From: a virus
Length of the DNA: 31,552 bases
Virus record (IMG/VR): IMGVR_UViG_3300034072_001291
Location: 1-31,552 of that record
Strand: one strand, 5' to 3'
The notes under the pieces were generated by a model. It saw only the letters and a program-made list of their open reading frames with translations. It did not search any database and had not been told where the DNA came from. Each line of letters begins with the position of its first letter. Within the stretch, counting starts at the first letter, position 1. Below, one piece after another: positions 3,562 to 25,778 of the stretch. A program made the translations under genes and the position numbers.

Positions 3562-4151
3562 CAGCCGAGCTCCTCGAGCGTGAAACCCAGCTGCACCATG
3601 CGATCGACGCGGATAGCCCAGTCGGAGCTCTCGCCGTCGACGAAGCCGTCGATCATCGGCTGCGCGAGGTGGACCACCGCGCCGTCCGGAAAGGGAAAGC
3701 GCAGCGCCGGCACGATGTTGACCGTGGCCAGTCCGGATCCGCTGGCGACAACGGCATTGGTGACGTTGTGCAGGTAGTGGTTGCCGCCGCCCTCGATGCT
3801 GAGCCAGAAGCCTTCGGCGATCGGGTAGCTCGCCGTGAGACCGCGCAGCGCGATCGCTGTGCCTGCCTGCCCTGCCCCGTTGACCACCGGGCTGCCCGGG
3901 GATCCCTGATCCATGCCGAGCAGCGGCCAGGGCATCCGGACGAAAGTCGACTTGGCGCGCAGCAGGCGCGAAACGAAGATCGCGGCTTGCGCCGGGGTCA
4001 TCAGCGGATAGGAGATTGCTGCACGAAAGCGGTTGCCCGGCCGGTCGACCCGCACCGTGCGCGCGCCGAGCGCGCCGCGCAGATTGACGCCGAAGTCGAT
4101 CATCGATGCCTGCGCATCATTCGGAGCGGGGGACGCGGGCAGCGTGATCAT
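3561..4151 (-). CDS. Distal tail protein
   Basis: 196 residues. The start overlaps the tape-measure stop (ATGA) and the stop overlaps the next start (TGATG). The sequence is rich in beta-forming segments (NRFRAAISYPLM, FWLSIEGGG, FPDGAVVHLAQP) and ends QLGFTLEELG. This is the usual first gene after the tape measure, corresponding to distal tail proteins that cap the tube and hold the hub. No signal peptide or membrane segment is seen. Exact family unknown to me; the role is inferred from gene order. Confidence 0.72.
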   Translation of the reverse strand: MITLPASPAPNDAQASMIDFGVNLRGALGARTVRVDRPGNRFRAAISYPLMTPAQAAIFVSRLLRAKSTFVRMPWPLLGMDQGSPGSPVVNGAGQAGTAIALRGLTASYPIAEGFWLSIEGGGNHYLHNVTNAVVASGSGLATVNIVPALRFPFPDGAVVHLAQPMIDGFVDGESSDWAIRVDRMVQLGFTLEELG

Positions 4152-6307
4152 GCGCCGATCCGCCGCGTCTGTCGCCGCGCCAGGCGCGATTCCGTCAAGC
4201 GCGCGCTGCCATCCATGATCTGCGGCGCCTTGCCCGCGACACTGCGGCCAATCCGCGCCTCGACGATATCGGTCCGCTCATCGAGGATGATGCGGATCGC
4301 CGACTGCCCGGCCTCGCGCAGCTCGTGATTGGGAACGACGCGCCCGCCGCGCGGCACCTGCAGGATCTCCGGTCCGCGCTCGCCGACCATCATCAGCCCG
4401 CCCGGGTGGAAGGCGGTACCGTTGGCATTGCCCGGGATCTGCGCTGCGTTGATGCTGGTGGCGAGCTTGCTGCCAAACAGGCCGCTGCTGCCCAGCTGCA
4501 GGAACAGGTTCACCGCACTGCCAAGAATATCGAGAAAGCCGCCGCCCTTGATGGCATTGACCATCCGGTCGAGCGCCTGGATCGACTTCTCGGTCATGTC
4601 CTTGAAGCTGTCGGCGATCTGGACGGTCTGCACCCGGGTGGTCTCCGCCACCCGCCCGATGCTCTGGGCGATTGACTCCGCGGCCGCGTTGACCTCCGCC
4701 GCCTCCTTGAGCGGGCCCTCGTCGAACCCTTGCGCGCGGCGCACGGATTCACGCCGCGTGCTGGCGCTGATCACGCCGGCGCGCTCGCCCGCGAAGAGAT
4801 CGGCGATCCGCGAGGCCTTTTCGTCGGCCGCGACAAGCTCGGGAAACAGCTCAGCCAGGTGGCCCTGCACGCGCTCCCGAAGGTCGCGCATCGCCTTTTC
4901 GACGCCATTGGCCGCCTTCTGCGCGGGATCGACCATATAGGTCTGCAGCTTGGCCATCTCGACCCGGATGCCGTCGACCATGTCGGGCACGTAGGAGTTG
5001 CCGACGACGGCGATGTACATGTCCCTGAAGAAGCCGGTGACCGCGTTGATCTTCTTTCCGACCCAGTCGAAGATCGCGCCAAGCTTACCGACCAGCCAAT
5101 CCTTCACGCCGGTCACCAGTTGCGCGAGCGCGCGCACGCTGCCGACCTGCATATTCCACCACCAGGTGACGGCTCCGACCAGCAGATCCTTTAGCGCGCC
5201 GAGCACCGGGGCGACATTCTCGTTCCACCAGGCCGACACCACGCGGCCGAGATCGGCGACGATCGCCTTGATGTCGTCCCAATAGTACCAGGCCGCAACC
5301 ACGGCAGCGACAGCCGCGACGATCAGCCCGAGCGGCGAAAGCAGCAGCGTGTTAAGCGCCAGCCCGACAACCGATAGGATCGCCGGGAAGCCACCAAGCA
5401 TTGCGATGGTAGCAGCGCCCGCACTGATGACCGAACCGAGGCCGACCGCGATCGGCCCGACGATCGCTGCGATCGCGCCAAGCACCACGACAGCCTGCTG
5501 CACCGGCTCGGGAAGGCTCGCGAAGGCCGAAGCCATCCCGGCAATCGCCTCGCCGATCGGCGCGATGGCGGGGAGGATAGCGCCGCCGATCGCATCCATC
5601 GCCTGCCCGATCGCTACCTGCGCTTCGCGCCAGGGCGAGGTGTCGGCGGCGGCCTGCGCGGCGCCGGCAAACTGGCGCTCGACTTCGGCAAGGATCACGC
5701 CCTGCGCGCCGGCCATGTCGCCGGCGTCTGACATGGCCTTGATCTGTGCCTTCTGCGCCTCGGTGAACTGGACGCCGACGCGGGTGAGAGCGGTGATGCC
5801 CTTGATCGGGTCGTTAAGCGCCTTGCCCAACATGATTGCCGCCGACTGCGGCTCGGTGCCGAGGCGGGTCGCCATGTCGACGGCCGCCTGCTGCGCGCGG
5901 TCGAACTCGCGGCCCGCCACATTGCCGAAGGTCAGCAGCTGCGCGGTGACCTGCTTGAGGATGACCTCGGCGTCGAACAGCGAGCGCATCTCGAGCGCGT
6001 CGGCCGCCTTGGACAACTCATCCGCCGTCTTGCCCGACACGCCGCCCATCGAGGCCAGCGCCGCGGTGACGTCGGCCATCGCCTTCTGCTGGTCGATGAA
6101 ACCGTCCACCGCGCTCTTGGCGATCGCCGCCATGGGCAGCGACACGGCGAGGCTCATCTGCTTGCCGAAGTCGGCGATATCGCGGCCGCGGCGCTGGATC
6201 GCCTTCGTCGTCTTCGCGATGTCCTGCTCGGACCGGGCGAGCCCTTCCTGAAGAAGGCCATGCTCGACCGCAAGCCGGATCAGCAGCGATCCGATCTTCA
6301 CTGCCAT
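4148..6307 (-). CDS. Tail tape measure protein
   Basis: 719 residues, the longest complete protein in the window. It sits directly after the tail chaperones, as tape measures do. Residues 1-60 are a charged helix (ARSEQDIAKTTKAIQRRG). Ala-rich helices and an extended hydrophobic zone (about 235-345) contain several possible membrane-spanning stretches, followed by Trp-rich repeats (AWWNENVAP, WWWNMQVG). Residues 629-660 carry the common tape-measure C-terminal motif NGTAFHPGG...GERGPEI..VPRG..VVPN. It sets tail length and helps DNA cross the cell envelope. At 719 residues the tail would be of the order of 110 nm by the usual 0.15 nm per residue rule, which is an estimate only. The start is ATG at 6307, two bases after the previous frame stops. 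Confidence 0.93.
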   Translation of the reverse strand: MAVKIGSLLIRLAVEHGLLQEGLARSEQDIAKTTKAIQRRGRDIADFGKQMSLAVSLPMAAIAKSAVDGFIDQQKAMADVTAALASMGGVSGKTADELSKAADALEMRSLFDAEVILKQVTAQLLTFGNVAGREFDRAQQAAVDMATRLGTEPQSAAIMLGKALNDPIKGITALTRVGVQFTEAQKAQIKAMSDAGDMAGAQGVILAEVERQFAGAAQAAADTSPWREAQVAIGQAMDAIGGAILPAIAPIGEAIAGMASAFASLPEPVQQAVVVLGAIAAIVGPIAVGLGSVISAGAATIAMLGGFPAILSVVGLALNTLLLSPLGLIVAAVAAVVAAWYYWDDIKAIVADLGRVVSAWWNENVAPVLGALKDLLVGAVTWWWNMQVGSVRALAQLVTGVKDWLVGKLGAIFDWVGKKINAVTGFFRDMYIAVVGNSYVPDMVDGIRVEMAKLQTYMVDPAQKAANGVEKAMRDLRERVQGHLAELFPELVAADEKASRIADLFAGERAGVISASTRRESVRRAQGFDEGPLKEAAEVNAAAESIAQSIGRVAETTRVQTVQIADSFKDMTEKSIQALDRMVNAIKGGGFLDILGSAVNLFLQLGSSGLFGSKLATSINAAQIPGNANGTAFHPGGLMMVGERGPEILQVPRGGRVVPNHELREAGQSAIRIILDERTDIVEARIGRSVAGKAPQIMDGSARLTESRLARRQTRRIGA

Positions 6308-6311
6308 CGGT

Positions 6312-6542
6312 TCAACCTTCCACTTTTCGTATCGTGATTGGAGCGCCGCGCGCGGCGGCGTCCTGCAGTGCGAGGATCATGTCCCGCACAGAGCGCGGCT
6401 TGCTGGGCCTGACCTGCTCGACCCATCTGTCGAGGCTGCCGAGCTTTCCTGCCCCGGCCATCACCCGCATCTGGGCCGCGACGTAGTCGGTCAGCACCTG
6501 CTCCTCGATGCGCGCCTGCCGGACCTTGGCGTCAGCCTCCAT
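6312..6542 (-). CDS. Second tail assembly chaperone (gpT-like), probably made as a -1 frameshift fusion
   Basis: From its first ATG this is 76 residues, but the frame is open well upstream with no stop, back past the end of the preceding gene. It encodes segments such as WLDLLGRWLASG and EAAFWQQTPASFAAAME that look like real protein. The upstream part is in the -1 frame relative to the first chaperone, and a GGGAAAC slippery heptamer lies in that gene at 6677-6683. The likely product is therefore a fusion of 122 residues of the first chaperone plus 121 residues read here, 243 in all, equivalent to lambda gpGT. An independent start at 6542 remains possible. It would help load the tape measure for tube assembly. 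Confidence 0.75.
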   Translation of the reverse strand: MEADAKVRQARIEEQVLTDYVAAQMRVMAGAGKLGSLDRWVEQVRPSKPRSVRDMILALQDAAARGAPITIRKVEG

Positions 6543-6622
6543 CGCCGCGGCGAACGAGGCCGGCGTCTGCTGCCAGAAGGCGGCCTCGGTCCTGCCCGAG
6601 GCCAGCCACCGGCCGAGCAGGT

Positions 6623-7042
6623 CTAACCACGCTCGGCGGCGGCTCTCCGGGCCTTCCGGTTGGCCGCCGGGGGCGCGTTTCCCTCCTCGACACCGCCGGG
6701 CGCCATCGCTTGGGCGATCGCCCAGGCGACGATCCCCATTGCCCCGGCCGTGCCGAGGTCCTGGATGATGTCGCCGACGTCCTCGAGGCTGACGTCGTGC
6801 GCGCCCGACAGCGCGTGGAACATCACGAGCCGCACGTCCGATTGCCGCAGTCCCTTGATCGCGGCAAAGACCTTCGCCGGGTCCTTGGCGTCCTCGGCGT
6901 CGAGCTGGATCATCAGCGGACCGACGAACTCATAGAAGCCCTTGCCGGTCTCGGCCTCGATCGCGCAGGTGGCGTTGAAGTCGAAGCGGGCAGTCCACTC
7001 CTGCCCGAGCGCGGTGAACCGCTTCTCGTCGAGGCGGCTCAT
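6623..7042 (-). CDS. Tail assembly chaperone (gpG-like, GTA-gp10-type)
   Basis: 139 residues. It lies between the tail tube and tape measure genes, where the chaperone of long-tailed phages always lies. The sequence FDFNATCAIEAETGKGFYEFV and the helical remainder match the small GTA-gp10-like family, which coats the tape measure before the tube polymerises. The start at 7042 overlaps the TAA of the tube gene by one base. The C-terminal 20 residues are Ala/Arg/Lys-rich (ANRKARRAAAERG) and look like a disordered end read only in the unshifted product. A slippery heptamer 17 codons before the end should divert a minority of ribosomes into the next frame. Confidence 0.85.
   Translation of the reverse strand: MSRLDEKRFTALGQEWTARFDFNATCAIEAETGKGFYEFVGPLMIQLDAEDAKDPAKVFAAIKGLRQSDVRLVMFHALSGAHDVSLEDVGDIIQDLGTAGAMGIVAWAIAQAMAPGGVEEGNAPPAANRKARRAAAERG
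6677..6683 (-). other. -1 programmed ribosomal frameshift site (GGGAAAC)
   Basis: On the minus strand the bases read G GGA AAC, with GGA at 6682-6680 and AAC at 6679-6677 exactly in the codon register of the upstream chaperone gene (ATG at 7042). This is the X XXY YYZ form and differs from the lambda G/GT site (GGGAAAG) only in its last base. Slipping back one base enters the frame that stays open to the stop at 6312. The GC-rich stretch just 3' could form a stimulatory structure, but I did not identify a defined pseudoknot. Confidence 0.8.
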
Positions 7043-7482
7043 TACGGCGCCGCCGTGATTTCAGCCGCGTCGACCGGCTTCAGCGTGATCTCGAAGGTGC
7101 GCTTGGCATCCTTCGGGTTCATCCGCTTGAAGTTGTAGAACAGCCCGGTGCCCTCGACGTGGAAGATATCCGCGCCTTCCTTGAGGATGATGCGGTATTC
7201 GCAGGCACCTTCCTCGTCGTCGGCCGACTGCAGCAGCGTGTCCGAGGCGGAGTTGATGACGTAGTTGCCGCGGATCGTGATCGGCGTACCGTCCTTGAGC
7301 GGCAGCTTCTTCCACTCCTTGTATTCCTCGGTGTCGAAGTTGCTGGTCTCGTAGAGCTCGCGCTCGCTCGAGGTCGGCAGCTCGGGGATATCGTCGACCT
7401 CGGCGACCTTGGTCAGCACGCCGGCGCCGATCTTGATCCAGAGCTCGGACCCATGGCCATGGGTCGTTTTCGAAAGTGCCAT
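7042..7482 (-). CDS. Major tail tube protein
   Basis: 146 residues. It starts MALSKTTHGHGSELWIKIG and contains the tube-protein pattern VAEVDDIPELPTSSERELYETSNFD followed by beta-strand-rich segments (GTPITIRGNYV, CEYRIILKEG). This is the short tube type found in HK97-like and GTA-like tails. It should assemble as stacked hexamers forming the tail tube. Its position between the tail terminator and the chaperone agrees. It starts 12 bases after the preceding stop. Confidence 0.88.
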   Translation of the reverse strand: MALSKTTHGHGSELWIKIGAGVLTKVAEVDDIPELPTSSERELYETSNFDTEEYKEWKKLPLKDGTPITIRGNYVINSASDTLLQSADDEEGACEYRIILKEGADIFHVEGTGLFYNFKRMNPKDAKRTFEITLKPVDAAEITAAP

Positions 7483-23555: not shown

Positions 23556-23826
23556 TCTGATCGTCAGCCGCCACGCGATGGATCGCTACCGCGAGTGCGT
23601 GGCGGACCTGTCCGATCACGAGATCTTCGCCCGCCTGTCCGGCCCGGCCTTCGAGCTCGCGGCCGAGATCGGCGCGCCCTTCGTCAAGCTTCCGACCGGC
23701 CATCGCGCGGTCATCCGCGACGCGACCGTCATCACCATCCTTCACGCCGATTGCAGCTGCGGCCTGCTCGATCCCCGCCGCGATCCCCACCCAGCCCAGG
23801 AGCACCACAGGAGCACCCAACCATGA
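23548..23826 (+). CDS. DUF4258-like small protein
   Basis: 92 residues from the ATG at 23548, which overlaps the repeat gene by 8 bases. The pattern IVSRHAMDRYRECVADLS..EIFARL, then AAEIGAPFVKLPTGHRAVIRDATVITIL resembles DUF4258-type proteins, small relatives of the RelE/MqsR fold found in phages. Residues His9 and Arg13 (SRHAMDRYRE) are the family's usual start. It ends in Cys/Pro/His-rich tail residues. No partner antitoxin is adjacent, so toxin activity is not claimed. The stop overlaps the ParB ATG (ATGA). Confidence 0.62.
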   Translation: MDNLIVSRHAMDRYRECVADLSDHEIFARLSGPAFELAAEIGAPFVKLPTGHRAVIRDATVITILHADCSCGLLDPRRDPHPAQEHHRSTQP

Positions 23827-25778
23827 CCACGCCTCCGCCTGACACCACAGTCCATCTCACCCTCGCCGATCTGGCGATCTCGCCGCTTAATGTCCGCTAC
23901 AACGAGAAGGACGCCAACGCGGTCGAGGCGCTCTCCGCCTCGATCGTCGAGCAGGGCCTGCTCGAGCAGCTGCTCATCCACCCGGCGCCTGAAGGCGCGA
24001 AGTGGACGAAGCGCGAGAAGATGAAGGGCGATCTTCGCCCGCCCGCAAAATATGGCGTGCTCGCCGGTGGCCGGCGCTACCGCGCGATCCGCCTCGCGGT
24101 CGCGCGTTTCCAGCTGCCCGCCGACTTCCCGGTCCGGTGCGTGATCAAGGATCTGTCCGACCAGCAGATCGTGCTGCTCTCCCTGTCTGAGAACCTCCTG
24201 CGCCGCGATCTGCAGGGCTATGAGGTCCATGCCGCGATCGCGCGCCTGCGCGGCCTCGGGATGGACATCGGCGAGATCGCCCGCAACCTCGGCCAGAGCC
24301 CCGACTGGGTCGCCCAGCAGGCGCGGCTCGGCGCGCTGCACCCGCCGATCTTCGCGGCCTATTCGGCAGGCGAGATCGATGTCGAGCAGGCCCGCGCCTT
24401 CGCCGCGACCGAGGAACTCACCCTGCAGGCTGCCGCCTGGGAACACTTCGCCCGGCGTCAGAACTGGGAACGCCAGCCGCACCAGATCCGCGCCTTCTAC
24501 AAGGTCGGCGATCACCAGCTGGCCAAGCTCCTGCGCCTGGTCGGCGAGGACGCCTATCGCGCCGCCGGCGGGCACTTCGAGCTCGACCTTTTCGCCGCCG
24601 ATCAGGACCACCGCGGCCGCGTGGCCGACGAGGAGCTGCTGCAGAAGCTGGCAGAGAAGGTTCTCGATGCCGTCCGCACCGGGATCCGCGCCGAATCGCA
24701 GCGCCGGGATCTGCGCTTCGCTGCCCAGCCGCCCCAGCGGCACGGCTTCAACGACACCGCGCTCGAGATCTATGTCGAGAGCCCGGCCGATCTCGACCCC
24801 GCGATTCCCGCTGATGCATTGTTCGCAACGCTTGAAGTCACCAACCACGGCAGCGCTGTTCACCGCTTCTGGTGGGCCAGCCGCAAGGCGAAGGATGACT
24901 TCGAAAGGGGCAAGGTACCCACTTCAGCGGGTGGCGCTCCCGCTCGCGAGGAGGAGCTCGAGGGCGCCGCCCTCGCCGCCCCGGCTGTCTACGGTAAGGA
25001 AGCGCGCGCGATCGCCCGGGATGAGCACGGCCTGTCGGCGAGCGGGCTCGAGGTCTGCCGCTCGATCCGCCGCGACATCCTGCGCTGGGGGCTGCTGACC
25101 GAGGCGCGCAGCATGGCCGGTGCGGGGCTGTCGATCGACTTCATCCTGTTCTCCCAGCTGCGAGTCGAGCTCGGCCGGGAGAGCGGGACCGCGCTCGGCG
25201 TGCGCCACCTCACCACCGCCTACGGTGCCGAGGACAACGAGGACGCCGAACTGGGCAAGGCCTATTGCCAGAGCAACGCGCGCGAGACCTTCAAGAATGA
25301 GGTCGAAGCGTTGATCGCCGAAGACTGGATGACCGGGAAGGATGTCGGCAAGGCTTTCGCTGCCTTCCTCGAGCTCGATCAGCCAGCCAAGGATCGCGCC
25401 GCCGCAGTACTTGCCGGGCTCCTGCTGAAGCGCTCGGTCAATGCTCCCGGCTTCAGGGTGCCGATGCACGATGCGCTGGCTCGCCAGCTCGGCCTCGATG
25501 CCGAACAGGCCCGCCGCGCCTGGACGCCCGATCATCACTTCACCGGCCTGTTCCCCAAGCTGAAGCGGATGGAGTTTGCTCAGGCTTACGTCCCGGCCGA
25601 TGCCTTCCGGAGCTGGAAGAACCTGGCCGACACTCCGCTCGCCGCAGCCACCGCCCACGTCCTCGGCGAACAACCGGACTGGGTGCACCCGGTGATCAGC
25701 TTCGACTTCGAAGGCTTCCACCCCGGCGGCGCGCCCGGCACGCTCGCCGCGATGCTCAAGCCGGAGCCCGCCCTGTGA
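23823..25778 (+). CDS. ParB-like protein of phage type
   Basis: 651 residues from the ATG at 23823, much longer than classical ParB (about 300). Residues 10-130 hold the ParB/Srx domain: SPLNVRY, SASIVEQGLLEQLL, then GVLAGGRRYRAIR (82-88 core) and LSENLLRRDLQGYE. An HTH follows at about 148-170 (IGEIARNLGQSPDWVAQQARLG). The last 400 residues are an unassigned helical extension (LEVCRSIRRDILRWGL, DWMTGKDVGKAFAAFLELD, WTPDHHFTGLFPKLKRME). The CTP-binding GGRRYRA box is intact. There is no ParA nearby. Such phage proteins may load on DNA, act as nucleases or aid segregation. Large ParB-like proteins are common in phages and plasmids of this group. Confidence 0.88.
   Translation: MTTPPPDTTVHLTLADLAISPLNVRYNEKDANAVEALSASIVEQGLLEQLLIHPAPEGAKWTKREKMKGDLRPPAKYGVLAGGRRYRAIRLAVARFQLPADFPVRCVIKDLSDQQIVLLSLSENLLRRDLQGYEVHAAIARLRGLGMDIGEIARNLGQSPDWVAQQARLGALHPPIFAAYSAGEIDVEQARAFAATEELTLQAAAWEHFARRQNWERQPHQIRAFYKVGDHQLAKLLRLVGEDAYRAAGGHFELDLFAADQDHRGRVADEELLQKLAEKVLDAVRTGIRAESQRRDLRFAAQPPQRHGFNDTALEIYVESPADLDPAIPADALFATLEVTNHGSAVHRFWWASRKAKDDFERGKVPTSAGGAPAREEELEGAALAAPAVYGKEARAIARDEHGLSASGLEVCRSIRRDILRWGLLTEARSMAGAGLSIDFILFSQLRVELGRESGTALGVRHLTTAYGAEDNEDAELGKAYCQSNARETFKNEVEALIAEDWMTGKDVGKAFAAFLELDQPAKDRAAAVLAGLLLKRSVNAPGFRVPMHDALARQLGLDAEQARRAWTPDHHFTGLFPKLKRMEFAQAYVPADAFRSWKNLADTPLAAATAHVLGEQPDWVHPVISFDFEGFHPGGAPGTLAAMLKPEPAL

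Follow-up and report, generated by a model that had tools for sequence, protein, structure and literature searches.

A very probable lambda G/GT-type -1 frameshift at GGGAAAC between the tail chaperone frames of a virus record, and possible exchange of the slip site among its relatives

Two reading frames overlap between the major tail protein gene and the tape measure gene of the virus record IMGVR_UViG_3300034072_001291, and the second of them continues past the stop of the first without a usable start of its own. How do ribosomes reach it? The window analyzed here is this whole virus record of 31,552 nucleotides. Its first frame, referred to as G, is a tail assembly chaperone-like ORF of 139 codons on the minus strand (7042-6623). 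Near the 3' end of this ORF, the heptamer GGGAAAC (6683-6677, minus strand) is split as G GGA AAC and thus lies in zero-frame register; it is the sole heptamer of the form XXXYYYZ from 7042 to 6300. From 6677 onwards the -1 frame, referred to as T, is open for 121 codons up to a stop at 6314-6312 (whole extension 6312-6677, minus strand), and reading through AAC followed by a -1 step yields a fusion of 243 aa. Register, open frame and fusion length had all been proposed in an initial annotation and are reproduced by our computation.

The gene order is major tail protein (7042-7482, minus strand; PHROG 158, E 9.4e-7), G, T, tape measure (4148-6307, minus strand; Pfam TMP_2, E 1.2e-9), and the same-strand run also holds tail terminator, neck, capsid, portal and terminase genes. 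Oriented on the strand opposite to these structural genes is a 727-aa ORF (23595-25778, plus strand) that weakly matches the N-terminal and HTH domains of ParB. The PHROG matches are 2115 'tail protein' for G (E 3.4e-9) and 19318 for T (E 4.7e-11). Foldseek places the predicted fold of G close to several predicted viral proteins labelled 'tail assembly chaperone' (probability about 1.0, with a best E of only 1.7e-3); searching the PDB for folds like those of G or T returned nothing of use, and no solved structure was matched. Gene transfer agent (GTA) clusters have the same tail chaperone gene order as the window, and in Pfam scans Phage_TAC_6 matches weakly in seven of 13 T family members (best E 0.0049) and Phage_TAC_11 (GTA gp10) in two of 13 G family members (best E 0.032). 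The likeness to this GTA-type pair therefore consists of gene order and weak profile matches, whereas the T protein of the window itself scores 14.5 bits against Phage_TAC_6, below the Pfam gathering score of 23.4, and its G protein has no Pfam hit. Judging by these profiles, the G/T proteins lean weakly towards the Phage_TAC_11/Phage_TAC_6 pair.

Conservation of the heptamer across related phages, which the initial annotation had put forward as a check, was examined in nine distinct sequences including the window, the other G proteins being 53-82% identical to that of the window. GAG GGA AAC is found in register in all nine, a count that is not one of independent cases, since the set of close relatives is small and of common descent. 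The heptamer is kept although the surrounding C-terminal tail of G varies in length and sequence; in the predicted structure of the window G protein, the site falls inside a low-confidence linker (residues 116-127) that is probably disordered. Its glycine is the sole invariant glycine column of G with GGA in all nine sequences. Because GAG GGA AAC recurs in register in every one of them, despite GGA accounting for just 44 of 546 glycine codons (8%) in the long genes of the window, we do not regard the heptamer as a chance occurrence. In the corresponding region of more distant relatives, L003 (51% identity) has A AAA AAC, L019 has G GGA AAC, and L022/L023 (40% identity) have G GGA AAG, which is lambda's own site. 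A prophage-like locus on a Tritonibacter plasmid likewise carries GGGAAAG in register. Two scans of genome contigs for relatives found none, and the phages collection yielded distant relatives only.

A wider search with a diverged T alignment returned 53 loci; 47 of the analyzed loci, with pairwise T identities below 80%, form the diverged set. The position of the shift can be bracketed in each locus, because it must follow the last upstream stop of the T frame and precede the stop of G. This bracket is tight in several cases: the first base of the heptamer is where the T-frame stop ends in L108 (a member of the close clade), L050 and L065, and in L095 and L106 the stop lies 3 bases away. All 47 diverged loci contain an in-register -1 candidate inside the bracket, and 34 of them lack ATG, GTG and TTG between the site and the T core.

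The most obvious alternative is that T is a separate 76-aa gene, coupled to G or independent, which begins at the ATG at 6542-6540 (minus strand), and that the heptamer is there by chance. A gene caller would choose this codon, and an ATG is present near that position in the majority of close relatives; in L016, however, the corresponding codon is GTG. It is the first ATG, GTG or TTG in the T frame after the heptamer, and none occurs between the G stop and 6542, in line with the earlier claim that the -1 frame is entered without a start. A conserved WLDLLGRW...FWxQTP core lies in the stretch from the G stop to 6542, and its FWQQTP part (6561-6578, minus strand, from the family alignments) is entirely upstream of the ATG. 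Over the same stretch, pN/pS among the nine sequences is 0.33 in the T frame versus 1.49 and 1.42 in the other two frames; this protein-level selection indicates that the -1 frame is translated as protein upstream of 6542. Furthermore, the AlphaFold model of T (mean pLDDT 81) has well-predicted helices from residue 11 onwards, and the ATG corresponds to residue 47, within the helix formed by residues 40-76. No Shine-Dalgarno sequence precedes it, whereas several neighboring genes have one. We judge that the ATG at 6542 is not the real start of T and consider a separate gene extremely unlikely.

Re-initiation at a non-AUG codon (CTG, TTA or TTG) near the G stop would produce T with no slippage at all. 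The T frame does overlap this stop, and most relatives have CTG codons after it, but a TTG near the stop is present in just one of the nine close sequences (L006), and re-initiation leaves unexplained why GGA AAC is invariant some 60 bases further upstream. Among the loci with GGGAAA, moreover, the heptamer persists while its distance to the G stop ranges from 22 to 133 bases. We therefore hold re-initiation to be very unlikely. As single contigs can carry indels, the frame transition might also be a sequencing error or the mark of a decaying gene; we found no support for this, the same frame relation occurs in 47 of 47 diverged loci, and both reading frames are conserved, which leaves it a negligible probability.

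Hence, we consider it very probable that the two frames are joined by a programmed -1 ribosomal frameshift of the lambda G/GT type at GGGAAAC. Register, open frame, lack of a usable start, conservation of the heptamer and of the -1-frame protein, and gene order were computed directly; the slippage itself we infer. According to this model, most ribosomes would complete the 139-aa chaperone G, while a minority, having GGA in the P site and AAC in the A site, would slip back by one base onto GGG and AAA and read 121 more codons to give the G-T fusion of 243 aa. Lambda suggests the roles of the products: G, like the G part of G-T, would bind the tape measure protein, and the major tail protein would be recruited by the T part. 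The corrected gene model would be a 243-aa G-T fusion rather than a truncated 76-aa gene, in a phage family that is poorly annotated and mostly uncultivated.

In lambda, -1 frameshifting yields gpG and gpGT at a ratio of about 30:1, the tape measure being bound by G and the major tail protein by T, and a tail chaperone frameshift is widely conserved in long-tailed phages (PMC5009743). Most Rhodobacter capsulatus phages of one collection are also implied to carry such a frameshift (PMC8601537). The window shares with lambda the placement of the pair between the genes for major tail protein and tape measure, the short G ORF, the in-register XXXYYYZ heptamer near its 3' end, the start-less -1 extension, and the first six bases of the heptamer. 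It differs in the last base, which is C (AAC, Asn) in the window and G (AAG, Lys) in lambda's GGGAAAG, and in its protein sequences: in Pfam scans, none of the 13 G or 13 T family members matched a lambda-type family, and no similarity to gpG or gpT was detectable. The likeness to lambda that had been suggested thus holds for arrangement, mechanism and gene position, but not for protein sequence, and the window site is a well-supported new case of a known arrangement. At the slip site itself, there is a counterpart in the g-t sites of the haloarchaeal siphoviruses HCTV-1, -2 and -5, which are archaeal viruses unlike the window phage: the site of HCTV-1, G_GGA_AAC, is identical to that of the window (PMC5009743).

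In E. coli, slippage at A_AAA_AAC is much lower than at A_AAA_AAG (PMC5009743), so GGGAAAC may be a weak site; this has to be set against lambda's need for just about one G-T per 30 G. Two candidate stimulators were tried and rejected. Downstream RNA folds with a z-score of -2.4 versus shuffles in the window, but the consensus of the nine sequences (15 pairs, just one of them compensated) does not support a structure. As for an upstream Shine-Dalgarno stimulator, the heptamer of the window is directly preceded by a run of purines, but this run is not constant among the relatives.

The diverged loci differ in the kind of site that they contain. The 47 candidates comprise GGGAAAC (15), GGGAAAG (6), AAAAAAC (1), AAACCCT (17) and CCCT after a non-slippery triplet (8), counts which overstate independence because the loci share ancestry. 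AAACCCT is found in register 20 times and in neither of the two alternative registers at all, and CCCT is found 30 times in register versus two and four times in the others. When the G proteins were resampled synonymously with the codon usage of the family, in-register GGGAAA(C/G) was expected in 1.7 loci (21 seen), in-register AAACCCT in 0.75 (20 seen), and CCCTC in 4.9 (28 seen). Mapping the site types onto the T tree requires 13 changes, i.e. repeated exchange, and one AAACCCT locus (L121) groups with the GGGAAAC loci of the window in a supported clade (99/100).

In the 17 loci of the A_AAC_CCT type (L070, L071, L072, L074, L075, L076, L077, L079, L081, L084, L089, L092, L094, L101, L115, L121, L122), the site is located 37-109 bases before the G stop, and the next base is nearly always C. 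Since 14 of the 17 have no ATG, GTG or TTG between the site and the T core, a shift is needed there too. The eight loci with NNC CCT C, which lack a slippery preceding triplet (L073, L103, L104, L105, L110, L111, L114, L118), possibly use a single-tRNA slip at C_CCU; three of them (L103, L110, L105) also have possible T-frame starts. L088 contains the composite G_GGA_AAC_CCT_C, 61 bases upstream of the G stop (1541), in which the two types overlap by the AAC codon – a possible bridge between GGGAAAC and AAACCCT.

We lean slightly towards the view that the -1 site is exchangeable in this family and that A_AAC_CCU and N_NNC_CCU_C represent a proline-codon slip which, as far as the literature was searched, is undescribed for phage tail chaperones. 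The tRNA-Pro would move from CCU to CCC, with or without a movement from AAC to AAA. A_AAC_CCU may be an undescribed phage -1 site: searches for frameshifting at AAACCCT, AAACCCU or AAACCC found no report on phage tails in titles and abstracts, with subscription papers and supplements outside their reach, and the novelty of AAACCCT as a -1 site is not established by this search. A caveat is that the letters AAACCCTC would be forced without any slippage if G requires Asn-Pro and T requires Lys-Pro-Ser. However, these would be the sole fixed residues in linkers that vary elsewhere, they coincide with the place where the frame has to change, and most GGGAAA loci lack them. An argument from codon degeneracy in the T frame was dropped, because the joint requirement for Asn-Pro and Lys-Pro-Ser forces the same letters. 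As at least three kinds of -1 site appear to be in use among homologous genes, the family offers a natural experiment in which one can ask in which hosts each site works, and whether C_CCU is a real bacterial -1 signal.

The initial annotation also stated that the second protein is usually mis-annotated as a short gene starting at 6542; for the close relatives, no annotated record was found. Among named phages, the distant relative Caulobacter phage Kronos (L123; MH884648, 992-1725) has a separate hypothetical protein annotated for each of G and T. The homology of its T extends upstream of the annotated T start, and a different candidate site, C_CCC_CCG, is present in register; the Kronos G/T pair is therefore a probable unannotated frameshift.
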